From Roseobacter insulae (GTDB taxonomy: Bacteria > Pseudomonadota > Alphaproteobacteria > Rhodobacterales > Rhodobacteraceae): a stretch of 64,000 nucleotides of DNA. This document shows, piece after piece, positions 4,872 to 63,063 of this stretch (position 1 is the stretch's first letter; every line of letters begins with the position of its first letter). Location: positions 62,001-126,000 of the forward strand of contig NZ_JAHXDN010000006.1 of the NCBI RefSeq assembly GCF_019375555.1, read 5' to 3'. The notes beneath the pieces were generated by a model. The model made no database searches. It was not told where the DNA came from and worked only from the letters and a program-made list of their open reading frames with translations. A program made the position numbers and the translations under genes.

Positions 4872-7800
4872 TCAGCTCTCCAGCGAAATCTCATCGAGTG
4901 AGAGCGTTTCCATCCCGTCCTCGGTCCATGTCGCGGTGATCGAGGCGGCACCTGTCAGATCATCGGGCGGGCTGTAGATCACCTGCACGATGCCATTCTC
5001 TCCCGACATCGCCTGCGACAGGTTCAGCGATCCCGCGCCTTCCAGTTCGAAGTGGACCCGTGCCCCGGTCTTGAAATGACGGCCACGCGCAAGCTGATAC
5101 TGCATCACAACGTCCTGACCATTGGCAGCAGAGGGGCTGATCTCGAAAGCGGGTTCATCATGCGCCGTGTTCCAGCCTCCAAGAGACAGCAGCGTGAGGC
5201 CGCCCTTGACGACGACCTCGGTTGTTGCGGTCACCAGATTGCTGCCGGCCAGGCCGACGTTGACCGTCAGCACCAGATTATTGAGATCGCCGGTCTGCCA
5301 TGCCTCGGCCTTGCCGACAAAGGGAGCAAACTCGACCTGTGCGGCGAAGGGCGCATCCGCACGGGTCTGACCGGCGAGAACGGTCTGACCCGCCATCTCG
5401 AACGACCGGATTTCCACGTCGAACGTGTGATCGCGTTGTTTGGTGCCATCGGCACGCACAAGGGCAGCGCCGACCGTCAGATCGACCTTGTTTTGCGGAA
5501 AGATACCGTCTTGCGGCACATCAACCGGGTCAATCTGAACACTTATGTTCAGGTCGGCGATGCTGAACTCCGGGTCGAGTCCCAGCTGCAGCGCCTCCGC
5601 GTAATCCTTTGATAAGGTTTCGAGATCGCTCAGAATGCTTGAGCTGTTCTTGAGCTTCTCATTCGTTTTTTCAAGGTTGCCATCATAGGCTTTGGTCAGG
5701 CGTTCGCGCGCAAGGCTGTAGCGCGCGGACAGCGCGTCGGTGGTCTCAAGGCCGAGTTGAGCCACGGCATCGTACCAGGTCACGAACTCCCGCGCGGCAT
5801 CGTTTGTCCTGGGGCCCGGGTCATCTATTGCCTGCCCGATGCGCAGGCCGACCGCCTCGTCGAACCAGCGCCGCAGCTCCTGTGTGACCTTGTCACGATC
5901 ATAATCCGCGCCGTTTTCGTCGAGCTCATCGGCGATCAGCTGCAGCGCTTCCCGACCGCGCGCGCTGATGTCACCGGGGGTAAAGACGGGGGGGGTCTCG
6001 TCCCCGTCGGGTGAATCGGAATGTGGCCCGTCGGGCGCGCCGGAATCCGGTGACGGGTCAAAGGGTTGAACGGGCGGCGGGGAGGGATCGCCCGACCCGC
6101 CGGTCGTCGGTGGCGCGCTGCCGGGTCCGCTGCCGCTGCCCGAGGTGCCGCCTGACCCGCTGCCGCCATCATCCTCCGCTACCGGGATGCCTTCGCCGTC
6201 ACCGGTAGCCGCCGCTGTCTTCTTGCCGACGCCCTCGTCCTCGTTCTTGCTGCCTTCCTTGATCGCATCTGTGACCGCCTTGGTCGAGGCTGCCTTCTCT
6301 GTCGGATTCTTGGGGGGATCGGCCACTTGTCGCATCGACTGGCTGTGCAGTTGCTGCGCCAGCTTGGCCGCCGCCTCGCCGATTTGCACCGACGCTTTGA
6401 GGGCTTGTTCTGCCGCGTCCCCTGTCAGTTCCGCGGATGCCTTGCCCATTTCACCCGCAAGCTCGTTCAGGCTGGACATTGTCGACACCAGCTGGTCGGA
6501 TTTCGACATATCGCGGAACATATTGCCGTCGCGCACGGCGGCAAGGATGTTTTGCAGGCCGGTTGCGGCGGGGAAGCTGGGTGCGCCGGCGGGTTGCAAA
6601 TGTGGCGCCTGCACGTTGGGGTCGAGGCCGGAGGGTGTCTGGAAACCGCTTTGCAGCGACAGCGGGCTGATCGCAGGGGCCTGATGGGGGATCGGACTGT
6701 CCTGCCAGTTCCAATAGCGGTCGGGGACGACATATTCAGCACCGTTCGCGCGGCCCAGAATTGATTCCGCAAAGACGCCGGACGAGGGTAGATACACCAA
6801 GCCGGCCTTGCCCGCTTTTTCTTTCGCATCGGCGAATTTCTTGGCAATAACGGCGTGGTGCTTGATCAGCGTGCCCAGCGAGGCGACGGCATCGGCACCG
6901 TATTTCGCAACCAGGTCCTTGAAGCCCGTCAGCAAGGCGCTGTCACGCGCCAGATCCTGTTTGAGCCATAACACAATGGCGCCATCGGTGAACCCCAGAG
7001 GCCGCGTGTCCGCGATTTCATGCAAGGGCACGGTCGCGCCATCGCCCGCACCCGACCTGATTTGGATGGCATCGAGCAGCCGTGTAATCGCTGGACCGGC
7101 CGCCAATGTGAAAATCTGCCGGGTAAAGGCATAGCGGTGCCTGTTCAGGTGATCGACGATTTGATCGCGCCAGTCGTCGCGCATGGCTATGGATGTCTGA
7201 TAAGCATGGTCCGCCGCGGCATTGTCGGCTTCTATTTGCGCGATGTCGGCGACCTCAGTGTCATAGGCGTGCCACTCCGCGCGCAGCGCCGTCACAGGAT
7301 CAAAATCAAACAGACCGGTAAATATGTTGTCCTCACGGTCGAGCGGGTGCATGGGCAGTGTTCGGTTGGCATGGGTCTCCAGAAAGCTGGGGCCCGAGAC
7401 GATCATGTTATCGACCTCGACCTTCGCATTCACGGTGACGCCGGTCTCCAGCCCGGTCAGCTTTTCGAACATATCGCTTGCGGCGTCGGTAAAGGACTCC
7501 CTGTGGATCAGGCGCACGAAAATGCCGCGCAAGTCCCCGCTGATCGACGCGCCCGCCGGCAGGCCGAACGACATGGTGACCTGCCGACCGCTCAAAATCA
7601 GGTTCTGCGCGATCTGCGCGATATTGCTGACGTCCTTCAATCCGTGTCTCTGGCCGCCCTGGGTTTCGAGCGAGGTTTCGACAAGCGAAAAGAGCGATGC
7701 CAGCTGTGTCACATCGTTGATCAGCAGCTCGGCCAGCGTGATCGGGAAATCCAGGGTCACCGTCAGCATCGCGTTGCTGACCTTGAGGTCTGACAGTTTC

Positions 7801-49652: not shown

Positions 49653-50396
49653 CTACAGCATTTCCCTGAGCAACAGGACGGTACCCGAGACAAAGCAGAT
49701 CGCGATCAGCAGACGCCTGAAGGTATCATCGCTCAGTCGGCGGAACACGAAAATTCCCACCTGGGCAGAGATCATCGCGGTTGGTACCGCGATCGCAAGA
49801 AAGATGAGCGTGCGGGTCTGATAGGCGCCATTGAACGCCAGCATGATCGCCGTCAGTGCCAGGACGGTGACATTGAAGGGCTGCAGGACAGCGCGTGTTT
49901 CGACCTTGGGCCAGGCGCGCATTGCGCACCACATGGTGGGCAAGGCGCCGGACAAGGAAGCCGCTCCCCCCAGGATGCCGGCAAGAAAACCGACGCAGCA
50001 GTCCATGATCGGCGTGGGATGGTTGATCTTCGGCAGCGTGCGCCTGAGCGTGAAAAATCCGCCGTAGAGAATGAGAAAGAAGGCAATCAGCAGTTTGAGA
50101 ACGCTCGCGTCAATCTGCTTGAGGGACGCGATGCCCAGCGGAATACCGACAATGGCGGGCACCAGAAACCGGGCCAGCCTGCGTGGGTTGTTCCGGATCG
50201 ACCTGCGGACAATCCACAGGCCCTGCAGACCGCTTGCCACGGAGATGACGACGATGATGGCCACAGCCTCCAGGGCGGGCATCACGGTCAGGAAAAAACC
50301 AAGTGCGAACAGGGATGTACCGAAAGCAGCTAATCCGTTTATGAAGCCACCTGCAATGGATCCGACAACAAGATAGAGGAGCTGATCCGATGTCAT
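49653..50396 (-). CDS. TauE/SafE-family membrane exporter
   Basis: 247 residues with about eight helices; the repeated glycine/proline motif GGFINGLAAFGTSLFALGFF and FLAGILGGAASLSGALP is typical of the family (sulfite or organic anion exporters). Its ATG overlaps the LysR stop by four bases, so it is regulated with that gene. In this context it may export a side product of the nearby catabolism. Substrate unknown. Confidence 0.88.
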   Translation of the reverse strand: MTSDQLLYLVVGSIAGGFINGLAAFGTSLFALGFFLTVMPALEAVAIIVVISVASGLQGLWIVRRSIRNNPRRLARFLVPAIVGIPLGIASLKQIDASVLKLLIAFFLILYGGFFTLRRTLPKINHPTPIMDCCVGFLAGILGGAASLSGALPTMWCAMRAWPKVETRAVLQPFNVTVLALTAIMLAFNGAYQTRTLIFLAIAVPTAMISAQVGIFVFRRLSDDTFRRLLIAICFVSGTVLLLREML

Positions 50397-51304
50397 CCGG
50401 CGGTGTCCGCTTCGGTCCTTGCGCCGAACGCGCCGATTGCGACGGCCCGCAGGCACACGCTATGCAGTTCGGACAGAACGCGCCCATGCACCGTGTCACG
50501 CGGAAAGAGCAAACCCAGTCTGCGGACCGGCGCATCATCACCCAGCGACAGTCTCTTGAGCGGCAGCGGGTGGTAGGGTTGCACCGATCTTTTGGGGGCG
50601 ATGGCCACGCCCAGATTGGCGAAGACCATGCTGGAAATGGCTTCCAGCCCATCCAACTCCATCGCCTCGTTGACCCGGATGTTTTTGCTTTGCAGCCAGC
50701 TTTCGATCATGTGGCCCACAACCGCATCCCGGTTGAATCTGATGAAGGGATGCCGCGCGATGAGCTCGTAGGGGTCATCGCTGTCAGTCTCAAGAGAGGC
50801 GATCAGCTGCAACGGCTCCTCGGCAATTTCGAGAAACTCGACGCCTGCCGGCAAGAGTTGCGGACGCGACACCAACACCGCATCCAGCGCCCCCCGTTCC
50901 ACTTGCGAGATCAGCTGAGTGGTCAGGCCGGGAAACAGACGTACCCGCACTTGCGGGTAGGTATGCACCAACATGGAGATCGCCGAAGGCACCAGCGTCG
51001 TCAGCGTTGTCGGCAGCGCGCCCAGGGCCACGTCACCGCTGACGCCGCTTTCCCCCAGCACCGACGGCAGCATCTGATCATAGGCTCTGACGACCTCTTT
51101 CGCCTTGACCACCAGCGCGCGGCCAAGCGGGGTCAGCTCCGGGGTTCTTCGCGACCGGTCGAAAAGCTGAATGCCCCAGTTCTCCTCAAGCGTTCGCATC
51201 TGCTGGCTGACCGCGGCATGGGTGACACAGACGGCATCCGCCGCTGCGCTGAACGTCTTGTGATCATGCACGGCGATGAGGGTGCGTAGGATGCGGATCG
51301 ACAT
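50393..51304 (-). CDS. LysR-family transcriptional regulator
   Basis: 303 residues: helix-turn-helix at about 1-60 (KTFSAAADAVCVTHAAVSQQ) and a PBP-like effector domain (GDVALGALPTTLTTLVPSAI). ATG 51304 has AAGG nine bases upstream; a GTG one codon earlier is also possible. Divergent from tctC with two dyads between them, so it most likely controls the transporter and its own gene with TauE. Confidence 0.92.
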   Translation of the reverse strand: MSIRILRTLIAVHDHKTFSAAADAVCVTHAAVSQQMRTLEENWGIQLFDRSRRTPELTPLGRALVVKAKEVVRAYDQMLPSVLGESGVSGDVALGALPTTLTTLVPSAISMLVHTYPQVRVRLFPGLTTQLISQVERGALDAVLVSRPQLLPAGVEFLEIAEEPLQLIASLETDSDDPYELIARHPFIRFNRDAVVGHMIESWLQSKNIRVNEAMELDGLEAISSMVFANLGVAIAPKRSVQPYHPLPLKRLSLGDDAPVRRLGLLFPRDTVHGRVLSELHSVCLRAVAIGAFGARTEADTAG

Positions 51305-51321
51305 CACTCCGTGCCTTTTTT

Positions 51322-51358
51322 GTTAGCAATACTAACGCAATGTGTAATTTATTATTAC
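51322..51358. promoter_or_regulatory. Two phased LysR-type operator dyads
   Basis: GTTAGCAATACTAAC (51322-51336) and GTAATTTATTATTAC (51344-51358) are both perfect 5-5-5 inverted repeats with the T-N11-A form. Their centres are 22 bases apart (two helical turns), as expected for recognition and activation sites of a LysR tetramer. Confidence 0.8.
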
Positions 51359-51453
51359 TTCTTTAAAGCATGCCTTAACGTTACCAATTGTGCAAGAGCG
51401 TGCGCGGCATTGGCCCCACGGCTCAAAAGGATCGATCGAACGGGGAGAAATCA

Positions 51454-52428
51454 ATGTCAATCAAATCAATCAGTGCGGTCTGTGCCGTGAGCCTTGGCCT
51501 CGCGGGCGCGGCTTTTGCAGAGTATCCTGAACGGCCCATCAACATGGTCATTCCATACGGTGCCGGAGGGGCCACGGACATCTCTGCCCGTACAATCGCG
51601 GAACCGCTGGGCGCTGCCGTCGGCAAACCGCTTGTCATGGCCAATGTGACCGGCGCGGGGGGGGCAACGGGGTCCGTTGCGGTTCAGAATGCAAAGGAAG
51701 ATGGCTATACGATGCTGTTTGCGCGGGTCGGATCACATTCCGTGAACCCGGCGATGAAGGCAACGCTTCCCTACGGCCTCGATGATTTTCGCTTCGTGAC
51801 AGTATATGAAATCAACCCGGTCGCCTGTGCTGTCAGCCCGTCATCGGGCATTACATCGATGGATGATCTGGTTGCCAAGGTGAACGAAGGCGGTGTGACC
51901 TATTCCTCCTCCGGGGTCGGATCGCTGTTGCATCTGGCGGCGGTCATGGTGCTGAAGGAGTTCGGCGTCGAGGAACCGCTGACCCAGACAACGCATATTC
52001 CGCAAAAGGGCGGCGGGGCCGCGGCAACGGCGGTGTTGAATGGCACCGCGACATTCCTGTGCACCAACTCATCGGCCATTTCGAGCTTCGTGGCCAATAA
52101 GCAACTGGTGCCCCTGATGGTGACGACGAAGGAACCTGTAGCAGGGTTTGACGTCCCGACCGCCGCAGATCTGGGCAAGCCCGCCCTGCATCAACTGGTC
52201 GGCTGGACAGGGATCGCCGGCCCGGACGGGCTGCCCGATGATGTGGCCGACAAATGGGGTACCTGGATGGCCGCGGCCACGCAGGATGCCGAATTCCTCG
52301 AAAAGATGACGGCCCGCGGCTCGGTCATTGAACTGATGTCCCCCGAAGACGCCAATGCCTTCATCGAAGGCCAGTACAACACCTTCCGGAAACTTGTTGA
52401 CGAATTAGGCATGAGGATTGAAGGCTAG
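51454..52428 (+). CDS. tctC: Tripartite tricarboxylate transporter binding protein
   Basis: 324 residues with a signal peptide (MSIKSISAVCAVSLGLAGAA, cleaved near FAEYP). TctC/Bug hallmarks: YPERPINMVIPYGAGGATDI, then GAGGATGSVAVQNAKEDGYT. It captures a carboxylate in the periplasm. GGGGAGA before ATG 51454. A terminator-like hairpin follows before tctB. Confidence 0.93.
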   Translation: MSIKSISAVCAVSLGLAGAAFAEYPERPINMVIPYGAGGATDISARTIAEPLGAAVGKPLVMANVTGAGGATGSVAVQNAKEDGYTMLFARVGSHSVNPAMKATLPYGLDDFRFVTVYEINPVACAVSPSSGITSMDDLVAKVNEGGVTYSSSGVGSLLHLAAVMVLKEFGVEEPLTQTTHIPQKGGGAAATAVLNGTATFLCTNSSAISSFVANKQLVPLMVTTKEPVAGFDVPTAADLGKPALHQLVGWTGIAGPDGLPDDVADKWGTWMAAATQDAEFLEKMTARGSVIELMSPEDANAFIEGQYNTFRKLVDELGMRIEG

Positions 52429-52458
52429 GGCGAAGACCGGCCTTGACGCAGACAGCAA

Positions 52459-52487
52459 CGCCGGGCGAGCAACAGCCCGGCGTTTTT
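52459..52487 (+). terminator. Terminator or attenuator after tctC
   Basis: 8-bp perfect stem CGCCGGGC/GCCCGGCG followed by TTTTT. Partial termination here would give more binding protein than membrane subunits. Confidence 0.8.
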
Positions 52488-52519
52488 CATGAGACCCGGA
52501 ACGGGCACGAGGGGAGCAT

Positions 52520-53011
52520 ATGACGCAGCGACAGGTGCAGATGCGGCTGGGAACAGGCGCCCTTTTGGTTGCCATTTTTCTGATCATCTACGCCATTCCG
52601 CAGTGGGTCTCCTCGCCAAGCAATGTGGGGAACATCATCCTTTCGCCGCTCTTCTGGCCCTATGCGCTGGCCGGGTTTACCGGGTTGGCTGGCTTGGGTC
52701 TGATATTTTCGGGCGTGAGGATGGCACCTGACGGCCCGCGGGTCGACGCCCCCTGCGACACGCCGGGTCTGGCCTGGCTGCGCCTTGCAGGAATGGCCGC
52801 CATTATGGTGGTTACGATGGTCTTGCTGCCGCGTCTGGGCATGGTGCTGACCTGCATGCTGGTGTTCCTCGCCTCCGCCTTTCTGGTCCGCACGCGGCAT
52901 CCCGTCACCGCCGTGGTCTGTGCGGTGATCATTCCGCTCGTGCTTTATGCCTTTTTTGCCCACATTGCCGGGGTTGCGATCCCGCAGGGCGAGATCCTGA
53001 GGTTGCCGTGA
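52520..53011 (+). CDS. tctB: Tripartite tricarboxylate transporter small membrane subunit
   Basis: 163 residues with four helices, matching TctB in size and layout (QVQMRLGTGALLVAIFLIIY; ILRLP end). Works with TctA in proton- or sodium-coupled uptake. AGGGGAG before ATG 52520. Confidence 0.88.
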   Translation: MTQRQVQMRLGTGALLVAIFLIIYAIPQWVSSPSNVGNIILSPLFWPYALAGFTGLAGLGLIFSGVRMAPDGPRVDAPCDTPGLAWLRLAGMAAIMVVTMVLLPRLGMVLTCMLVFLASAFLVRTRHPVTAVVCAVIIPLVLYAFFAHIAGVAIPQGEILRLP

Positions 53012-54522
53012 GCTTTCTGGACAGTATTGCCGCGGGTCTCGCCCTTGTTGGCAACATCGAATCCTTCCTTGCGCTTTTTGCCGGGGTTGCCATCGGTGTG
53101 ATCGGCGGCGCGATCCCCGGCATGTCGGCCACGATGGCGGTTGCTCTTACCTTGCCCTTCACCTTCGCCATGCAGCCGATCACCGGCATCCTGTTGCTTC
53201 TGGGGGTCTACAAGGGCGGCATCTTCGGTGGTTCCATTCCCGCCATTCTGATCAAAACGCCGGGCACGCCCGCGTCTTCGGCAACCATCCTCGATGGCTA
53301 TCCGATGGCGGAGAAGGGCGAGGCGGGGCGCGCGCTTGGCATGGCGCTCTGGGCGTCCTGCACGGCGGATGTGATCTCCAACCTGTCGCTGATCCTGTTC
53401 GCCGGATGGCTTGCCTCCTTTGCGCTAAGCTTTGGCCCGCCGGAGTTCTTCACGTTGATCCTGTTTTCGCTCACGATCATCGCCGGGGTGTCCGGCGAAA
53501 GCCTGCTGCGCGGGGCCTTGTCGGCGCTTCTGGGGCTGTTGCTGGCCACCATCGGGCTTGACCTTGTCTATGGCACAAACCGGTTTACCTTCGGCGATCC
53601 GAACATGATGGGCGGGCTGAATTTCATCGCCGTTCTCATCGGTCTCTTCGCGATCCCGGAAATCCTCGCCATGGTCTGGAATCCGACCGCGCATGTGGGC
53701 AAGGCGCGCAGTCTGGGCAAGAACTGGGTGAGTTTCGCCGAATACCGGCGCAGCTTCAAATCCATCGTCCGGGGCAGTTTCATCGGCGTCTTTCTGGGCT
53801 CGATCCCCGGCATTGGCGCCGCGCCTTCCGCTTTCCTGAGCTATTCCGAAGCGCGCCGCACCTCGAAGAACAAAGAGAACTTCGGCAAGGGCGAGATCGA
53901 AGGCGTGGCCGCCGCAGAGGCGGGCAACAACGGCGTTGCCGGGGCCACGCTGATCCCGCTGTTGGCGCTGGGGGTGCCGGGCGACGTGATCACCGCGATC
54001 ATCATCGGCGCCTTCATGATCCACGGGCTGCAGCCCGGCCCGATGATGTTCATTCTGAACGTCGACATCATCTATGGTCTCTTCATCGGGCTGATCGTCA
54101 GCTCGGTGTTTCTGTTCCTCATCGGCTCCGTTGCTATTCGCGGGTTCAAATATGTCGCCGACATCCCCAAACGCATCCTGATCCCCGCTGTGCTGGTACT
54201 CTGCATCTATGGGGTCTTCGCGGTGAACAACAACATTTTCGATGTCGGGGTGATGTTCGTGATGGGATGGGTCGGGTACCTGATGGTGCGCTATCACATC
54301 CCGGCGGCACCGTTCCTGATCGCCTTCATTCTCGGGCCCCTGCTCGAAGACAATTTCCGCCAGTCGATGCTGATGTCCGGCAGCGATCCGATGATCCTGC
54401 TGCGGGGTCCGATCACGTGGTTTTTCTGGACACTTACCGTGCTGACGGTCATCGCCATAGCGCGGGCCGGTGTGCGCGCGGTGCGCGGGGCGGCGGTGCT
54501 CTCGGGTGATCTTGACGACTGA
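53008..54522 (+). CDS. tctA: Tripartite tricarboxylate transporter large membrane subunit
   Basis: 504 residues, about 11-12 helices. TctA motifs: IGGAIPGMSATMAVALTLPF near the start and GSIPGIGAAPSAFLSYSEAR in the middle, the two inverted-repeat loops. GTG start overlaps the tctB stop (GTGA). Imports the carboxylate bound by TctC. Confidence 0.95.
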   Translation: MSFLDSIAAGLALVGNIESFLALFAGVAIGVIGGAIPGMSATMAVALTLPFTFAMQPITGILLLLGVYKGGIFGGSIPAILIKTPGTPASSATILDGYPMAEKGEAGRALGMALWASCTADVISNLSLILFAGWLASFALSFGPPEFFTLILFSLTIIAGVSGESLLRGALSALLGLLLATIGLDLVYGTNRFTFGDPNMMGGLNFIAVLIGLFAIPEILAMVWNPTAHVGKARSLGKNWVSFAEYRRSFKSIVRGSFIGVFLGSIPGIGAAPSAFLSYSEARRTSKNKENFGKGEIEGVAAAEAGNNGVAGATLIPLLALGVPGDVITAIIIGAFMIHGLQPGPMMFILNVDIIYGLFIGLIVSSVFLFLIGSVAIRGFKYVADIPKRILIPAVLVLCIYGVFAVNNNIFDVGVMFVMGWVGYLMVRYHIPAAPFLIAFILGPLLEDNFRQSMLMSGSDPMILLRGPITWFFWTLTVLTVIAIARAGVRAVRGAAVLSGDLDD

Positions 54523-54711: not shown

Positions 54712-56322
54712 ATGACGCCCACTTCCATCGCGACACTCAGTGCTCTGCCCGACCGTGATCCGCAGTATGCGCTTGTGGGGGAGGTGGATCTGGTCGTGGT
54801 CCGTTTTGACGATGAGGTGTCGGTGTTTTATGGGCGTTGCCTGCATCGCGGCGCCTTGATGTCGGATGGACACGTGCGCGGCAAGGACCTGATCTGCGGC
54901 GTGCACAACTGGGACTACCGGTTGGACAGCGGCGTGTCATCCTATGCCAATGACGAGGCCTTGCCGAAGTTCAGCTCATGGGTCGAAGGCGACGACATCA
55001 TGGTCGATGCGGATGAAATCATCCGGTGGGGATACGACAACCCGCAGCCGTATGACCGCAACACGTACCTGGGGCTTTATGCGGACCCCAGCCACGGCGA
55101 CACGGGCGAGCCCTATACCGGGCTGATCCAGCAATACGCCCGCGACGGGCTCAGCAAGACCGGACATCACGGCGTGGTGGATGCGATGGGCGTGTTGCGG
55201 GCTGAGGTGCCGGATTGGGACGATATCCAGATTCTGACGGCGCAGCTTGCAAAGGCGCCGCTGCTGGATGATGACCCGGTCGGGACGGAGGTGGTGATCG
55301 GTCCAAACGCGCAAAAACCGCTGCGCCTGAAAATCCCGCTGTTTGTGTCGGACATGTCCTTTGGCGCGCTGTCGGAACCCGCCAAGGTTGCGCTCGCCAA
55401 GGGGGCCGAAATGGCGGGCACGGGTATCTGTTCCGGCGAAGGCGGCATGCTGCCCGAAGAGCAGGCAGCCAACTCGCGCTATTTCTATGAACTGGCGTCC
55501 GCCCGGTTCGGATTCAGCTGGGACAAGCTGGAAAAGGTTCAGGCCTTTCATTTCAAGGGTGGGCAGGGGGCCAAGACCGGTACCGGCGGGCATCTGCCCG
55601 GCGCAAAGGTCACGGGCAAGATCGCCGAAGTGCGCAACCTGGACGATGGGCAGGATGCCATCTCGCCACCGCGGTTCCCCGACTGGACGGACCCGTCGCA
55701 GATCAAGCAGTTTGCGGATGAGGTGCGCGACCGTACGGGCGGGATTCCCATCGGCTACAAGCTGAGCGCGCAGCACATCGAAAAAGACATCGATGCAGCC
55801 CTGCAGGTGGGGGTCGACTATATCATCCTTGATGGTCGCGGCGGCGGTACCGGTGCCGCCCCCGTCATCTTCCGCGACAACATCTCTGTCCCCACGATCC
55901 CCGCCCTGGCCCGTGCCCGCGCCCACCTCGACCGGCTGGAGCGGAACGACGTATCGCTGGTGATCACCGGCGGCCTGCGCAAACCGGCCGATTTCATCAA
56001 GGCGATGGCCTTGGGTGCCGATGCGATCGCCGTTTCCAACGCGGCCATGCAGGCGATCGGCTGCTTGGCCATGCGGGCCTGCCACACCAACAACTGCCCG
56101 GTGGGCATCGCGACGCAAAAGCCACATCTGGTCAGCCGGATCATCGTGGATAAATCCGCGCGACAGCTGGCCAATTTCTTTGAGGCGTCAGTGGAGCTGA
56201 TGCAGGTCATGGCGCGGGCCTGCGGGCACAGCCACCTGTCGCACTTCACCCAGAGCGACCTGACCACGTGGAAGAAGGATATGGCCGAAATTTCCGGTGT
56301 TGCGTTTGGAGGCGCTGCATGA
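54712..56322 (+). CDS. Rieske [2Fe-2S] domain fused to GltB-type FMN (glutamate synthase-like) domain
   Basis: 536 residues. The Rieske domain at about 5-110 has both ligand pairs: C43-x-H45 (GRCLHRGAL) and C62-x2-H65 (ICGVHNWDY). Residues 140-520 are an FMN-binding glutamate-synthase-like barrel: KIPLFVSDMSFGALSEPAKV, GTGICSGEGGMLPEEQ, IILDGRGGGTGAAPVIF and ACHTNNCPVGIATQ. There is no amidotransferase domain, so it is not a complete glutamate synthase. It is likely a flavin oxidoreductase exchanging electrons through the Rieske centre. First gene of a six-gene coupled operon; AAGGA upstream of ATG 54712. The combination is unfamiliar to me. Confidence 0.88.
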   Translation: MTPTSIATLSALPDRDPQYALVGEVDLVVVRFDDEVSVFYGRCLHRGALMSDGHVRGKDLICGVHNWDYRLDSGVSSYANDEALPKFSSWVEGDDIMVDADEIIRWGYDNPQPYDRNTYLGLYADPSHGDTGEPYTGLIQQYARDGLSKTGHHGVVDAMGVLRAEVPDWDDIQILTAQLAKAPLLDDDPVGTEVVIGPNAQKPLRLKIPLFVSDMSFGALSEPAKVALAKGAEMAGTGICSGEGGMLPEEQAANSRYFYELASARFGFSWDKLEKVQAFHFKGGQGAKTGTGGHLPGAKVTGKIAEVRNLDDGQDAISPPRFPDWTDPSQIKQFADEVRDRTGGIPIGYKLSAQHIEKDIDAALQVGVDYIILDGRGGGTGAAPVIFRDNISVPTIPALARARAHLDRLERNDVSLVITGGLRKPADFIKAMALGADAIAVSNAAMQAIGCLAMRACHTNNCPVGIATQKPHLVSRIIVDKSARQLANFFEASVELMQVMARACGHSHLSHFTQSDLTTWKKDMAEISGVAFGGAA

Positions 56323-56696
56323 ACCAGGCAGAAATGATCCTGATGGGCTTGCGGATCTGGGGAAGCATCGGCGCGTTGGTTGCGGGCGTTTTCCTGACCG
56401 TCGGCATGGACCGGATCGATGAAGACGCGCGGGAGGCTTACATATTTCGGCCCCTTCTGATCCCCGGCATTCTGGTGATCTGGCCGCTGGTCCTGTGGCG
56501 CTGGTATCTCTACGAGACCGGGCGCGAGGTCTGGGCGCGCCGTTACGATCCCCCCCGCAGGGCGCATTTCGCGGTGGGGTGGATGCTGCCGCTTGGCATC
56601 TGTGCGATCATTGTCACGGGCCTGAGCATCCGTCAGCAATGGCCGGCTGACATCGCGCCCGAGCGTCTTTCTGCCCCGGCGGAGGTCAGCCAATGA
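56319..56696 (+). CDS. Small membrane protein of the Rieske operon (125 aa)
   Basis: 125 residues, three predicted helices (about 8-24, 44-62 and 84-104), with charged DRIDEDAREAYIFRP between the first two. Family not recognised. GGAGG before ATG 56319, which overlaps the previous stop by four bases; the next ATG overlaps its own stop the same way. Probably an assembly or anchoring subunit of the redox system. Confidence 0.8.
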   Translation: MNQAEMILMGLRIWGSIGALVAGVFLTVGMDRIDEDAREAYIFRPLLIPGILVIWPLVLWRWYLYETGREVWARRYDPPRRAHFAVGWMLPLGICAIIVTGLSIRQQWPADIAPERLSAPAEVSQ

Positions 56697-57754
56697 GCGT
56701 CAAATACATCCCCGTCCAGTGGAACTCCAACAAGTACATCTACGATGCCGTGATGCTGCTGGGGGTGGCGTTGTTTCTTTACATCTTCCTTTACGCCGCG
56801 CCGGGTCTGCTGAGCCATGAGCGTCCGATCAACCCGCAGGTGCATAACGCGCGGGCCTTCGGGGCCTGCGCCTTTGTCATGCTGACCGTGATCCTGTGTA
56901 TCGGCCCGCTGGCGCGGCTCGACAAACGGTACCTGCCGCTGCTGTACAACCGGCGCCATTTCGGCGTGATGACGGTCTTTGTTGCCTTGACCCACGCCGG
57001 TTACATCCTTGACTGGTATTTTGCCTTCTCAATGTCCGACAAGAACGAGGCGCTGCTCTTTGCCAACACCAGCTATGGCCAGCTTGCCGGGTTCCCGTTC
57101 GAAGCCTTCGGCATTTTCAGCCTCTTCACGTTGATCCTGCTCGCCGCCACCAGCCATGATTTCTGGATGAAATTTCTGAGCCCGCCGGTATGGAAACGCA
57201 TCCATTACCTGATCTACCCGGCCTACCTGTCGGTGGTGGCCCATGTGTCTTTCGGCATCTTGCAGGACCAGCAGAACCACGTCTTTACCGTGATCTTCAT
57301 CGGCGGAGCGGCGGCGGTGGGCGGTCTGCACCTTTTGGCGGCGCTGCACGAACGGCGGGCTGATCAGGCGCTCAGCGCAGAGGCCGCCGACTGGGTTCCG
57401 GTCTGCGATGTCTCTGAGATGACGGAGGGGTTCGCCAAGATCAGGCTGCTGGCGAATGGCGACCGCGTGGCCGTCTATCTGAATGACGGTAAGCTCAGTG
57501 CGATCTCGAACGCCTGCGCGCATCAGAACGGCCCCCTGGGCGAAGGCAGGATCATCGACTGTCTGGTTACCTGCCCGTGGCACGGTTTCCAATATGACGT
57601 CACCTCCGGCCGTTCGCCGGCGCCGTTCACTGAAAAAGTGCCGACCTATAATCTCAAGATCGAGGGGACCGATGTGCTGGTAGACCCAAAGGCAAACCCG
57701 CCCGGCACCTATGTTGAACCTCTGATCGCACCCAAAGCGGGAGGCACAGCATGA
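56693..57754 (+). CDS. Ferric-reductase-like membrane protein with C-terminal Rieske domain
   Basis: 353 residues. The N-terminal part has about six helices in the ferric reductase/MsrQ style, with histidines in RRHFGVMTVFVALTHAGYIL, KRIHYLIYPAYLSVVAHVSF and nearby that could hold b-type hemes. The C-terminal 100 residues are a soluble Rieske domain with ACAHQNGPLGEGR and TCPWHGFQYD. This puts a [2Fe-2S] centre next to a possible quinone- or heme-handling membrane module. No flavin/NAD domain as in true ferric reductases. Overlaps neighbours by four bases on each side. Confidence 0.85.
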   Translation: MSVKYIPVQWNSNKYIYDAVMLLGVALFLYIFLYAAPGLLSHERPINPQVHNARAFGACAFVMLTVILCIGPLARLDKRYLPLLYNRRHFGVMTVFVALTHAGYILDWYFAFSMSDKNEALLFANTSYGQLAGFPFEAFGIFSLFTLILLAATSHDFWMKFLSPPVWKRIHYLIYPAYLSVVAHVSFGILQDQQNHVFTVIFIGGAAAVGGLHLLAALHERRADQALSAEAADWVPVCDVSEMTEGFAKIRLLANGDRVAVYLNDGKLSAISNACAHQNGPLGEGRIIDCLVTCPWHGFQYDVTSGRSPAPFTEKVPTYNLKIEGTDVLVDPKANPPGTYVEPLIAPKAGGTA

Positions 57755-58512
57755 GCGACAAGGACACACCCTTTTTCGTCGGCTACCTGCCGGTTCCCAA
57801 GGGGCTGCGGGGTCTTTTACTGGCAGTCTGTGTGCTGTTCATTTCCGGGTTGGCGGGCTTTGGTCTGGCGCTCGGGGTGGCGCAGGATGATCCGGGCGAG
57901 GGCGCCTTTCGGTTCGATTACGGTCGCCAGACGGTCACCGGCGTGGTCGAACTGACGCCCTATCCCCTGCTGCGCGTGACGGAAGGCAACGAGCGTATCC
58001 CGGCGGGTCACACGCTGATGCTGGCGGGGGGCGGCAAGACCAATGTCGAGAGACGCGCGATTCCGCTGGAAGGGCAGTTGGCCAGGGCCTCCGGCGTGCT
58101 CCTGCAGCGGGGCGATCTGGACATGATGCAACTGCGCGGCGGGCGCAACGGCCTCGGCCCGGCCGAGGGCGTTGCGCCGGAACTGCCCACCGAACCCTTG
58201 GGGCGCTGGAAACTGGCGGGTGAGATCTGCGATGGTAAATGCCTTGCCGGTGCGATGCGCCCCGGGCGCGGGCTGGCGCATAAAGCCTGCGCCAATCTCT
58301 GCCTGATCGGGAAAGTGCCACCGGTTTTTGTCTCAAGCCAACCGGTGGACGGGCACGAGTTTCTTCTGATCACCGGGCCGGACGGCGGCCATTTTCCCGA
58401 AAGCGCCTATCACTACGTGGCGCAATTCGTCTCGCTGGAAGGCGAAGTTGAACGCCGCGGCGATCTGCTGGTGTTGCGTATCGACCCCGAAACGCTGGAG
58501 GTACTGGACTGA
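57751..58512 (+). CDS. Membrane-anchored protein of the Rieske operon (253 aa)
   Basis: 253 residues with one membrane helix at about 20-45 and the rest soluble, probably periplasmic. Four closely placed cysteines in CDGKCLAGAMRPG and ACANLCLIGK suggest disulfides or a metal site, though there is no CxxCH heme motif. Family not recognised. Overlaps the gene before by four bases and the next by one. Confidence 0.8.
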   Translation: MSDKDTPFFVGYLPVPKGLRGLLLAVCVLFISGLAGFGLALGVAQDDPGEGAFRFDYGRQTVTGVVELTPYPLLRVTEGNERIPAGHTLMLAGGGKTNVERRAIPLEGQLARASGVLLQRGDLDMMQLRGGRNGLGPAEGVAPELPTEPLGRWKLAGEICDGKCLAGAMRPGRGLAHKACANLCLIGKVPPVFVSSQPVDGHEFLLITGPDGGHFPESAYHYVAQFVSLEGEVERRGDLLVLRIDPETLEVLD

Positions 58513-58796
58513 TGCGCCGCGTGCTGATGCTTGCCATCGTCATCTGCATGGCTGCGGTGATGTTTTACCTCTCGCGCTTCTGGTACCTGTCACTGTGGAG
58601 CCGTGACGGCCTTTTGGGACAGGAAGCCCTGCGCCCACAGGGAGACCTGGTCAGCGTCTGGCTGCGGGGCACCGATGCCGCGCCCTTCGAGTTGCTGATC
58701 TGGGCGCTTGGCTGCTTCGCGCTGCTGACCGTTGCCCAGAAGCTTTATGACCTATTGACCAAGCCAACCGACGCAGGAGAGCCCGATGACGGATGA
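58512..58796 (+). CDS. Small membrane protein of the Rieske operon (94 aa)
   Basis: 94 residues, two helices (about 5-22 and 57-75). ATG overlaps the previous stop by one base (TGATG), and its 3' end overlaps the next gene by 11 bases. Family not recognised; likely a further anchor subunit. Confidence 0.75.
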   Translation: MRRVLMLAIVICMAAVMFYLSRFWYLSLWSRDGLLGQEALRPQGDLVSVWLRGTDAAPFELLIWALGCFALLTVAQKLYDLLTKPTDAGEPDDG

Positions 58797-60765
58797 AACA
58801 CGTGACTGGATCAGTGTGGGCCATATCGATGACCTGCCCGAAGGGCGGGTCAAAACCGTCACCGCGCGGACCACGTCGATCTGCCTGGTGCATTTCGATG
58901 GCCAATGGGCGGCGATGAACAACCATTGCCCGCATCAGCGCGGGCCGCTGGGCGAGGGATCCATCGAGAAGGGCGTCGATGACAAGTGCTGGATCCGCTG
59001 CCCCTGGCACGGGTGGGATTTCGACCCGCTGACCGGCAAGCCGCCGGGCGGGCACGAGGACAGCGGTCAGGATATGTACCCGGTCGAGATCCGCGAAGGC
59101 GAGATTTTCGTCGGCATCGCACCCGAGCCCCCGCATGAACGCACGGTGACGGATGTGATGGTTGAAACGCTCAGCAACTGGGGTGTGCAATCGGTTTTCG
59201 GCATGGTCGGGCATTCCAACCTCGGTCTGTCGGATGCCATCCGGCTCGCTGTCGGTGACGGCAAGATGACATATTTCGGTATCCGCCACGAAGGGGCCGC
59301 CGCCTTTGCGGCCTCCGCCTATGGCAAACTGACGGGCACGCCCGCGGCCTGTCTGACAATTGCAGGTCCCGGTGCGACAAACCTGCTGACCGGTCTGTGG
59401 GATGCGAAGGTCGACCGCGCGCCGGTGCTGGCGCTGACGGGGCAGGTGCAGACACAGGTCATGGGGCCGGGGGCCTTTCAGGATATCGACCTGTTGTCGG
59501 CCTTTCAGGCCGTGACCAGCTTTTCGCAACCGGTACTGGGCAGTTCCAACCATGCGGAACTGGCGGCGCTCGCCTGCAAAACGGCGATCGTGGAACAAAA
59601 TGTGGCACATCTGATCTTTCCCGATGATGTGCAGACCAATCCATCCGATCAGCCCGCCAGCGCGCCCGAGGGCCGTGTTACCGCGGCACCCGTGATCCCT
59701 GCCCAAAGCGAGATCGACAAGGCCGCGGCAATGATCAAATCGGCCAGGCGCCCGATCATCATCGTGGGCCACGGCGCCTATCCGATGCGCGATGACATCG
59801 CGTCGCTGGCCGAGCAAATGGGTATGCCGGTGCTGACGACGTTCAAGGCCAAGGGGCTGCTGCCGGACAGTCACAGATGCGCGGGCGGTGTGCTGGGCCG
59901 TTCCGGCACGCCAATTGCCAGCTGGTTCATGAACGAGGCGGACCTGATCATCGCGCTCGGCACCAGCTTTTCCAATCACACCGGGATCGAGCGCAGCAAG
60001 GAAATCATTCAGGTCGATCACGAGCGCATGCAATTGGGCAAATTCCATCCTGTCGCGCTGCCCATCTGGGGCGATGTCGGCGCCTTTTGCGAGGCCATCG
60101 CGCGGGCGGACTGTCAAAATCCGGGGGCTGACGACCAGATATCGGAACTGGCCGACCGGTGGGACATCTGGCGGCGCGAGAAACAGCAGCGCCTGCAGGA
60201 GGACCTTGGCAAGGGCATCCACTCCTTTGCGATCTTCGAGGCCCTGGGCCGCCTTGTGCCGGACAACACCATCTTTGCCGTGGACGTCGGCAACAACACC
60301 TACTCCTTCGGCCGCTATCTGGAGACCAAGGGCAGCCAGCGCGTGCTGATGTCGGGTTATCTTGGCTCCATCGGGTTCGGGCTGCCGGCGGCCATGGGGG
60401 CGTGGGCAGCAACCCAGGACAAGGCCGCGCTGAAAGGGTGCAAGGTCGTATCGATTTCGGGTGACGGGGGCTTTGGCCAATACCCCATGGAGTTCACCAC
60501 GGCGGTGAAATACGGCATGAATATTACTCATATCCTGTTGCACAATGGCGAATTGGGTAAAATTTCCAAGGAACAGCGTTCCGGCGAATGGCCGGTCTGG
60601 GAGACCGATCTGCAAAACCCCGGCTTTGCGGCGTTTGCACGTCTCTGCGGTGGGCATGGCGTCAAGGTGACCGATCCGGCCGACATCGAGGCGGCGATCC
60701 GCGAGGCGCTCGATCACGATGGGCCTGCGCTGGTGGAAATCATGACGGATGCGGATCTGGTCTGA
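58786..60765 (+). CDS. Rieske [2Fe-2S] domain fused to thiamine-diphosphate enzyme
   Basis: 659 residues. Rieske domain at about 8-112 with C48-x-H50 (NHCPHQRGPLGEG) and C72-x2-H75 (RCPWHGWDFD). From about 118 it is a complete ThDP enzyme of the pyruvate oxidase/acetolactate synthase type. The catalytic Glu169 lies in GIRHEGAAAFAASAYG. A central domain follows (about 310-440), and the ThDP/Mg motif starts at ISGDGGFGQYPMEF and ends in LLHNGELG. The N-terminal Rieske could take electrons from the cofactor-bound intermediate, giving an oxidative decarboxylase linked to the membrane. AGGAGA before ATG 58786. Last gene of the coupled operon. Confidence 0.9.
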   Translation: MTDETRDWISVGHIDDLPEGRVKTVTARTTSICLVHFDGQWAAMNNHCPHQRGPLGEGSIEKGVDDKCWIRCPWHGWDFDPLTGKPPGGHEDSGQDMYPVEIREGEIFVGIAPEPPHERTVTDVMVETLSNWGVQSVFGMVGHSNLGLSDAIRLAVGDGKMTYFGIRHEGAAAFAASAYGKLTGTPAACLTIAGPGATNLLTGLWDAKVDRAPVLALTGQVQTQVMGPGAFQDIDLLSAFQAVTSFSQPVLGSSNHAELAALACKTAIVEQNVAHLIFPDDVQTNPSDQPASAPEGRVTAAPVIPAQSEIDKAAAMIKSARRPIIIVGHGAYPMRDDIASLAEQMGMPVLTTFKAKGLLPDSHRCAGGVLGRSGTPIASWFMNEADLIIALGTSFSNHTGIERSKEIIQVDHERMQLGKFHPVALPIWGDVGAFCEAIARADCQNPGADDQISELADRWDIWRREKQQRLQEDLGKGIHSFAIFEALGRLVPDNTIFAVDVGNNTYSFGRYLETKGSQRVLMSGYLGSIGFGLPAAMGAWAATQDKAALKGCKVVSISGDGGFGQYPMEFTTAVKYGMNITHILLHNGELGKISKEQRSGEWPVWETDLQNPGFAAFARLCGGHGVKVTDPADIEAAIREALDHDGPALVEIMTDADLV

Positions 60766-60845: not shown

Positions 60846-61550
60846 ATGAATGACATCTACGAAGGGCTGGTTTCCGCGTTCTGGCTGGTGGTGACCCTGG
60901 ATCAGGACCTGATGCAGATCAGTCTGCGTTCCCTTCAGGTCAGCCTGTCTGCGCTGGTGATTGCCTCGGTGCTGGCGTTGCCGTTGGGCACGTTCCTCGC
61001 GATCAGGCGGTTTCGCTACCGGCGGCTGACGATCTCGCTGCTGAACGCGCTGATGGGTCTGCCGCCGGTGGTGGTTGGTCTGATTGTCTACATTCTGTTG
61101 TCGCGATCCGGGCCTTTCGGGGTGTTTGGTCTGCTGTTTACGCCGACGGCCATGATCATTGCGCAGGTGATTATCATCACGCCGCTGATTGCCTCCATCA
61201 CGCATCAGGCGATGCGCGAACTATGGGCGGAATATCATGATCTGCTGATCTCTCTGAACACCTCCAACTGGCAACGCATCAAGACGCTGATCTGGGATGG
61301 GCGGCGCAACCTGCTGACCGCCTCGCTGGCGGGGTTCGGGCGCGCGATTGGCGAAGTGGGCGCAATTATGATCGTGGGTGGCAATATCGACAATGCCACG
61401 CGGGTGCTGACCACCGCCATCGCGCTGGAGACCGGCAAGGGCGATTTCGCGCTCGCGCTGGCCCTTGGCTTTGTGCTGATCGCGCTGGCCATCGGCATCA
61501 ACATCTGCATCCACTGGTTGTCGCGCACCGAACGGGAGGGACGGTGGTGA
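60846..61550 (+). CDS. tupB: Tungstate ABC transporter permease
   Basis: 234 residues, five or six helices; the ATPase-contact loop is in LNTSNWQRIKTLIWDGRRNL, followed by GFGRAIGEVGAIMIVGGNID, typical of TupB. Eighty bases after the ThDP gene with no strong ribosome site. Overlaps tupC by four bases. Confidence 0.88.
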   Translation: MNDIYEGLVSAFWLVVTLDQDLMQISLRSLQVSLSALVIASVLALPLGTFLAIRRFRYRRLTISLLNALMGLPPVVVGLIVYILLSRSGPFGVFGLLFTPTAMIIAQVIIITPLIASITHQAMRELWAEYHDLLISLNTSNWQRIKTLIWDGRRNLLTASLAGFGRAIGEVGAIMIVGGNIDNATRVLTTAIALETGKGDFALALALGFVLIALAIGINICIHWLSRTEREGRW

Positions 61551-62260
61551 GCACAATTCTGCCTTTGACGCTCAAGGACGTGGCGGTACGCCGGCGCGGC
61601 AAACGCCTGCTCGGTCCGGTTGACCTGACCCTGGATCCCGACGGGCTCACGATGATCATCGGCCCGAATGGCAGCGGCAAGACCACACTGCTGCGCGTCA
61701 TGCACGGGGTTGAGCGGCTCAGCACCGGAACGGCGACATGGGCGGTGCCGGAGGAGGAGGCGCGGCACCGGCAATCCTATGTCTTCCAGACGCCGATCAT
61801 GTTGCGCCGGACCGTGGCCGACAATCTGGGATATCCGCTGCGGTTGCTCAACGCCCCGCGCGCACAGGTGAATGCGCGTGTCCGCCACTGGGCCGAACGG
61901 ATCGGACTTGCGGACCGCCTGAGCCTGCAGGCCACCCGGCTGTCGGGGGGCGAAAAACAAAAACTGGCCCTTGCCCGCGCCTTGATCCGCAAGCCCGATG
62001 TGCTGTTTCTGGATGAACCCTGCGCCAACCTCGACGGTGCCTCGACACGCGACATCGAAAGCATTCTGCAAACCGCCCTGTCTGAAAAAACCCGCATAAT
62101 CATGACAACACATGATCTGGGTCAAGCCAGACGCCTTGCAAGTGATGCAGTCTTCATGCTGCATGGCGTTGTGCATGAAAGGGGTCCGGCTTCGCGCTTC
62201 TTCGGCGCGGCGCAAACCGCCGAATTGCAGGCATTTTTCAGAGGAGACATCATCGCATGA
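61547..62260 (+). CDS. tupC: Tungstate ABC transporter ATP-binding protein
   Basis: 237 residues. Walker A IGPNGSGKTTLLRVM, signature RLSGGEKQKLALARALI, Walker B VLFLDEPCANLDG, H-loop TTHDLGQA. No TOBE tail, as in TupC. GTG 61547 overlaps the tupB stop and has GGGAGGG six bases upstream. Confidence 0.9.
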   Translation: MSTILPLTLKDVAVRRRGKRLLGPVDLTLDPDGLTMIIGPNGSGKTTLLRVMHGVERLSTGTATWAVPEEEARHRQSYVFQTPIMLRRTVADNLGYPLRLLNAPRAQVNARVRHWAERIGLADRLSLQATRLSGGEKQKLALARALIRKPDVLFLDEPCANLDGASTRDIESILQTALSEKTRIIMTTHDLGQARRLASDAVFMLHGVVHERGPASRFFGAAQTAELQAFFRGDIIA

Positions 62261-63063
62261 TCACGCGCGCATTTGCACTTTTGACCGCAGCATTCATGGG
62301 TACCGCCGCGCTGGCGGAGGACATCAAGCTGGCGGTCACGACGTCATTTGAGAATTCGGGCCTTGCGGACGTGCTTTTGCCCGCCATCAAGCAGGACCTC
62401 GATCTGGACGTGCAGTTGCTCGTCGTGGGCACGGGGCAGGCGCTGCGTCTGGGACAGGCCGGGGACGTTGACGCGATTCTCGTGCACTCGCGCAGTGCCG
62501 AGGAAAAATTCGTGGCCGAAGGCTATGGCACCTATCGGCGCGAGATCATGTACAATGATTTCGTCTTCATCGGGCCGCGGGACGACCCGGCCGGTGTGGC
62601 CAAATCAGGGTCCGCCGCAGAAGCTTTGAAACGCATTGGCGTGACCAAGCCCGCCTTCGTCAGCCGCGGTGATGACAGCGGCACACATAAGAAGGAAATC
62701 GCGCTCTGGCGGGCCGCCGATCTGGCGCCCGAAACATTTGGCGCGTGGTATCGGGCTGTGGGGGCCGGTATGGGCGCGAGCCTCAACACCGCCGCGGGGC
62801 TGGACGCCTATATTCTGGCCGACCGCGCCAGCTGGCTGAATTTCGGCAACAAGGCCAGTCTTGCGCTGCTCTACGCCGGGGATGCCGCGCTGTTCAATCA
62901 ATACGCCTTTCTCGCCGTGAACCCGGAAAAACATGCCCATGTGCGCAACGATCTGGCCGTGCAGCTGGAAAACTGGCTCACCAGCCCGCGTGCAGCGGAG
63001 CTGATCAATGCCTACACCATCAACGGCGAGACGCTCTTTATCTTCAACGCCAAACCTGAGTAA
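62257..63063 (+). CDS. tupA: Tungstate-binding periplasmic protein
   Basis: 268 residues with a signal peptide ending near AALA. TupA motifs: AVTTSFENSGLADVLLPAI, VGTGQALRLGQAGDVDAILV, HSRSAEEKFVAEGYG, and SRGDDSGTHKKE. It binds tungstate with high selectivity in known members. Last gene of the tup operon (B-C-A order), ATGA overlap with tupC. Confidence 0.93.
   Translation: MITRAFALLTAAFMGTAALAEDIKLAVTTSFENSGLADVLLPAIKQDLDLDVQLLVVGTGQALRLGQAGDVDAILVHSRSAEEKFVAEGYGTYRREIMYNDFVFIGPRDDPAGVAKSGSAAEALKRIGVTKPAFVSRGDDSGTHKKEIALWRAADLAPETFGAWYRAVGAGMGASLNTAAGLDAYILADRASWLNFGNKASLALLYAGDAALFNQYAFLAVNPEKHAHVRNDLAVQLENWLTSPRAAELINAYTINGETLFIFNAKPE

Follow-up and report, generated by a model that had tools for sequence, protein, structure and literature searches.

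A six-gene operon of Roseobacter insulae (genes A to F) can be read, tentatively, as coding for a membrane electron-transfer system wired by Rieske domains, with the membrane protein C as its hub; this is the interpretation that we favor, with some reserve. The operon lies on the plus strand at positions 54712–60765 of the window, i.e., the whole stretch of 64,000 nucleotides that was analyzed (contig NZ_JAHXDN010000006.1, positions 62,001 to 126,000), and its six open reading frames (ORFs) overlap in succession by 4, 4, 4, 1, and 11 bases. Both this close overlap and the presence of full Rieske ligand pairs on three different scaffolds had been pointed out in a previous reading of the letters only (hereafter the sequence-only reading) and are borne out here, the latter by Pfam and by ligands that are invariant in alignments. 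All the components come from families already known, and the general principle behind the operon is plausible but unproven; searches of an open-access library gave no description of the A–F pair, of D or of the whole operon.

Three Rieske domains on three scaffolds

Six matches to the Rieske family (PF00355) were obtained in the genome, and half of them are in this operon, in A, C, and F (43.1, 58.5, and 61.8 bits, with a cut-off of 20.3). The three proteins contain the CxH and CxxH ligand pairs typical of the family, and the residues involved were invariant in all the sequences aligned: C43/H45/C62/H65 in A (9 sequences), C275/H277/C294/H297 in C (24 sequences) and C48/H50/C72/H75 in F (12 sequences). 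The sequence-only reading had taken these domains to work at high potential, a claim that we could not support. Rieske proteins of the bc1 type have an extra cysteine in each ligand motif, forming a disulfide, and this type was rejected for the motifs of A (CLHRG/CGVHN), C (CAHQN/CPWHG), and F (CPHQR/CPWHG), none of which has additional cysteines. Judging from these motifs, the Rieskes of the operon are not of the high-potential type; their matches are dioxygenase-type ferredoxins, which are low-potential proteins.

The putative hub C (56693–57754) combines a six-helix membrane domain of the ferric-reductase/STEAP type (Ferric_reduct, 46.8 bits in Pfam) with a C-terminal Rieske. H101, H171, and H184 were invariant among 24 aligned sequences, and the Ferric_reduct domain, the haem histidines on transmembrane helices 3 and 5 and the fold place C in the ferric reductase superfamily, with haem binding predicted. 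Fold comparison of the structure model indicated a STEAP/NOX-type membrane domain followed by a ferredoxin-type Rieske. We rejected C as MsrQ, since PRK05419 gave 31.4 bits (cut-off 130) and the neighbor is D instead of MsrP. Protein D (57751–58512), modeled with a predicted local distance difference test (pLDDT) of 88.4, is predicted to have one N-terminal helix and two barrels like those of the oligonucleotide/oligosaccharide-binding (OB) fold, with a Cys-His-Cys-Cys motif (C164/H177/C180/C184) that was invariant in 28 aligned sequences. The sequence-only reading had counted D with B and E as three unrecognized small membrane proteins. None of the three reached the cut-off of any Pfam family. 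The description as small membrane proteins fits B and E alone, since D, with 253 amino acids, has a large folded region besides its single predicted helix. For B, the ORF in the list begins at 56268, but the ATG at 56319 agrees with the aligned relatives, giving a protein of 125 amino acids (56319–56696) with the conserved motif FRPLLxPGxxxIWPxVxxR. E (58512–58796) has 94 amino acids, and locus comparison showed that some loci with the membrane core B-C-D lack it.

Enzyme A (54712–56322) has an N-terminal Rieske in front of a flavin mononucleotide (FMN) domain of the GltB type (Glu_synthase, 306 bits in Pfam). Its Cys 451, 457, and 462 align with conserved cysteines that are the [3Fe-4S] ligands in GltB, also in a profile alignment to GltS from the PDB. 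A complete glutamate synthase was rejected: only the FMN (synthase) domain is matched, without any amidotransferase domain match, and the GltB equivalog reached 137 of 1047 bits. Enzyme F (58786–60765) has an N-terminal Rieske followed by a pyruvate-oxidase-like enzyme of the thiamine diphosphate (ThDP) type, with three TPP_enzyme domains (111–119 bits in Pfam). These include TPP_enzyme_M, the middle domain, which is where FAD-dependent pyruvate oxidases bind their FAD. In the alignment of 12 sequences the catalytic E169 and the Mg-binding D560 were invariant, and the other Mg-binding residue, N587, was Asn in eight sequences and replaced by Asp in the four from haloarchaea; binding of the cofactor is predicted. 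The best NCBIfam match was the pyruvate oxidase PRK08611, with 374 bits, below the 742-bit cut-off, for which F was rejected as a member of that equivalog. The sequence-only interpretation is supported in part, namely as to a redox unit that is conserved, has a component in the membrane and includes a ThDP enzyme resembling pyruvate oxidase.

Two modules that meet repeatedly

We have searched 198 genomes of the family (198 genera by tally), using E <= 1e-40 for C and E <= 1e-150 for F, and found D in 21, C in 20 and F in 13 of them. A was tallied in 36, comprising 21 that include the Rieske end (complete in 19, cut in G098 and G157), 14 in which the match starts only near residue 132, and a single fragment (G184). 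F shared 12 genomes with C (expected 1.3, hypergeometric p 3e-13) and 12 with A (expected 1.4, p 7e-13), both p values treating related genomes as independent. F was found without C in G126 and without A in G194, and A without F in nine genomes. In five genomes (G001, G029, G125, G171, and G194) F and C were unlinked, on separate contigs or hundreds of kb apart. B and C were beside D in all of the 19 D loci fetched, with A in seven and F in six. At the level of the class (385 genomes), F was present in 15, C in 18 and both in seven (expected 0.7).

F has no shortage of relatives: scanning genome contigs with two patterns, a step that takes no account of the Rieske domain, gave at least 569 confirmed stretches. 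In the best 80 F loci, which we examined, there was a homologue of A in 54 (four of them in a CDGSH form), C in 39 and D in the same 39. Many of the contigs were short, and among the 51 loci with more than 6 kb on each side A was present in 39 and C in 31. The layouts were varied: A-core-F (15 loci), A-F-core (8), core-A-F (3), F-A-core (2), divergent (4), core or divergent without A (7), A without core (22) and neither (19). In a quick tree with some long branches, built from 84 F proteins and covering 78 loci (all of the 80 but L093 and L131), adjacency to the core changes at least 17 times, adjacency to A 17 times and the layout 32 times. For the 41 loci without C nearby, C was found elsewhere in 15 genomes, so that, with the 39 loci, 54 of the 80 F genomes have it. 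Of the 26 loci without A, 22 had their genomes searched (those other than L071, L081, L114, and L128; in L081 and L128 the contig ends within an A gene), and A was located elsewhere in seven and nowhere in 15. The nearest relative (L052, ca. 5785–7550) maintains the TctA gene, the core, F and the Tup genes; gene A is absent from the locus, and a search of the whole genome at E <= 1e-100 did not find it. The co-occurrence of the six genes in other genomes, which the sequence-only reading had named as a check, is largely confirmed, although not as a fixed set, given that the A-core-F order is found in 15 of the 80 F loci, that no C was found in 26 of the 80 F genomes and that no A was found in 15 of the 22 genomes searched for it. 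The operon is best read as two modules, an enzyme pair A+F and a membrane core B-C-D(-E). Two of the F loci come from metagenome-assembled genomes labeled Campylobacteraceae (L113) and Thermoleophilia (L116), where binning errors are possible.

The enzymes next to the core, and the clusters that they carry, can also be different. In two loci (L142, 5204–7384; L147, 3359–5530) C was followed by a fusion of Rieske and FMN_red, with a B-like short membrane ORF upstream of C, and in L145 B-C-D was followed by A, indicating that some recurrent neighbors of the hub are different enzymes with a common Rieske domain. These are a few loci rather than a survey, and in many core loci no neighbor of this kind is in view. 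On the side of F, the GltB partner has two CDGSH-like motifs and no Rieske in four loci, L097, L100, and L101, where it is directly upstream of F, and L108, where it is about 8 kb from F; Pfam found zf-CDGSH on a related Vibrio protein. F-like enzymes with 57–59% identity are located on four haloarchaeal plasmids, three of which also have A (61%), so that A and F co-occur across domains. In these plasmids (L028, L029, L031, and L134) F and A are amid genes annotated as DsrE, rhodanese, TauE, merA, and DHFR.

Other neighbors were found around both modules. DUF5996 (Pfam on two members) was beside F in 12 of the 80 loci, 11 of them without membrane core nearby (L081, L088, L090, L118, L120–L127 and others). 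A further membrane protein of ca. 220 amino acids, with no Pfam family in the one member checked (L088), is clustered downstream of F or DUF5996 in six loci, including L067 (7579–8238), L061 (2650–3294), L088 (12874–13557), and L126 (11922–12689). Near the core there were YHS-domain proteins (over the Pfam cut-off in L148, 5425–5889; just under it in L047, 11018–11536) and, in core loci without F, Pirin-like genes named from sequence (L049, 6803–7741; L050, 11751–12719; L051, 10453–11403). On a Rhizobium plasmid (L133, 7503–13264) the annotated neighbors of B-C-D include TetR, a gene of the sigma-70 family, DUF1109/NrsF genes and one of the chlorite dismutase family. In the window itself, a TSUP-type permease, a LysR regulator and a tripartite tricarboxylate (TTT) transporter precede the operon (49653–54522), and three genes resembling the tungstate-type ATP-binding cassette transporter TupB, TupC, TupA follow directly (60846–63063), all named from sequence. 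A functional link to the TTT importer, as suggested in the sequence-only reading, found no support: a close TctA together with TupB/TupA was beside F only in L052 among the 80 loci, and L117 had a distant TctA-like gene (36%).

A possible electron route and its rivals

In the Rieske-wired system that we favor, F would use ThDP to oxidize pyruvate or a similar 2-oxo acid, and A, as a GltB-like FMN enzyme, would act on an amino- or imino-acid-like compound. Single electrons would then pass from F or A to its own Rieske, from there to the Rieske of C, and through the haem(s) of C across the membrane. The membrane domain of C would be a b-haem carrier like that of STEAP and MsrQ, with a cytoplasmic Rieske replacing the usual NAD(P)H/flavin part. 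D, on the outer face, would be the likely acceptor or relay by means of its conserved Cys-His-Cys-Cys site, and B and E may be small membrane partners. The direction, from the cytoplasm to the outer face, is proposed by analogy with STEAP/NOX proteins and FMN reductases. Such a system would probably keep some part of the cell envelope reduced rather than serve one catabolic pathway, perhaps under redox or electrophile stress. The suggestion of stress comes from the neighborhood of F. A Na_H_Exchanger antiporter (Pfam on one member) appeared in 29 of the 80 loci, 27 of these with A, and is annotated adjoining F on a Halorarius plasmid and ca. 3 kb from F on a Mycobacteroides plasmid; a sigma-70-type gene (Pfam on one member, L075) forms a cluster of relatives across nine. 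In four loci (L067, L075, L088, and L090) the sigma gene, beside the antiporter, is oriented away from it, and after the sigma gene comes a small protein whose HxxxCxxC motif is like that of zinc-binding anti-sigma factors.

Several findings weigh against this interpretation. No C was found at E <= 1e-60 in 26 of the 80 F genomes, F can be an orphan gene, and C occurs without F in 8 of the 20 family genomes that have it. Since F often stands without C, in such genomes it must work with a different partner or by a different route. The Cys/His site of D could be structural or metal-binding only. As for the stress role, neither a sigma/anti-sigma-like pair nor the antiporter was found near the operon in the window, and no such antiporter was found in its genome.

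An alternative close to the idea of the sequence-only reading, which we consider unlikely, is that the operon feeds respiration, with F acting like PoxB, A like a quinone-linked amino-acid dehydrogenase, C delivering to the quinone pool and D, B, and E being structural. Pyruvate oxidases and PoxB are the best relatives of F, and MsrQ, from the superfamily of C and matched by it through PRK05419, deals with quinones. However, to our knowledge PoxB requires no membrane hub, and D, with its conserved Cys/His site, accompanies C in all 39 of the F loci that have C. Furthermore, in the passages of PMC3591440 on the ferric reductase domain superfamily, electrons generally move from the cytoplasm outward.

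The flow might instead be reversed, from quinol to C and from its Rieske to A and F, which would be reductases or synthases (A producing an amino acid in the manner of GltB). We regard this as improbable: the GltB-type FMN domains of glutamate synthase do work reductively and ferredoxin-type Rieske domains are usually electron donors, but PoxB-like ThDP enzymes oxidize, and the Rieske–FMN reductase fusion beside C suggests a cytosolic input. Still more improbable is a mobile cassette of separate stress enzymes whose Rieskes have private roles without electron exchange between proteins, since, although each module is also found alone and haloarchaeal and mycobacterial relatives of F are on plasmids, F and C co-occur unlinked in five family genomes, the modules have been re-joined repeatedly in differing layouts, and the hub bears a Rieske as well as its differing neighbors.

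Beyond this operon, we put forward with greater doubt a general bacterial wiring of the plug-and-socket type. A STEAP/MsrQ-like hub with a Rieske socket would take electrons from unrelated soluble enzymes with Rieske plugs (ThDP oxidase, GltB-type FMN enzyme, FMN reductase) and export them to the new periplasmic Cys/His family D, in a redox-stress system whose enzyme part is common with archaea. If the Rieske-wired reading of the operon is right, cytosolic oxidations would be connected to the membrane or envelope in a modular way by fused Rieske domains. There would also be testable roles for two enzyme families recorded as “thiamine pyrophosphate-binding protein” and “glutamate synthase-related protein” and for D, a membrane protein family without a name.

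Comparison with known systems

Like pyruvate oxidase and PoxB, F has three TPP domains, with E169 and D560, but it has an added N-terminal Rieske and does not reach the equivalog cut-off. The closest solved relatives of the Rieske domain of C are the dioxygenase-type ferredoxins; these are free proteins, whereas the Rieskes of the operon form part of enzymes (A and F) or of a membrane protein (C). In contrast to STEAP and YedZ/MsrQ, C has a C-terminal Rieske in place of the NADPH/flavin domain and is co-operonic with ThDP and FMN enzymes, D being found where YedZ/MsrQ has MsrP. The combination of ferric reductase and Rieske domains is on record since 2013, as model M4 in a figure legend (PMC3591440). 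Unlike C, M4 also lists an FMN domain, and the passages of that paper on M4 give no operon, partner or function. The type 5 CISD proteins (PMC3174974) have tandem CDGSH plus a glutamate synthase FMN domain, and the CDGSH-bearing GltB partners of F described above are of this form. A was rejected as a member because a Rieske takes the place of the tandem CDGSH before the GltB FMN domain, although a CDGSH relative exists: the FMN domain of A is 68% identical to that of the Vibrio CDGSH-GltB protein, and both types have a His-ligated [2Fe-2S] plug in front of it.
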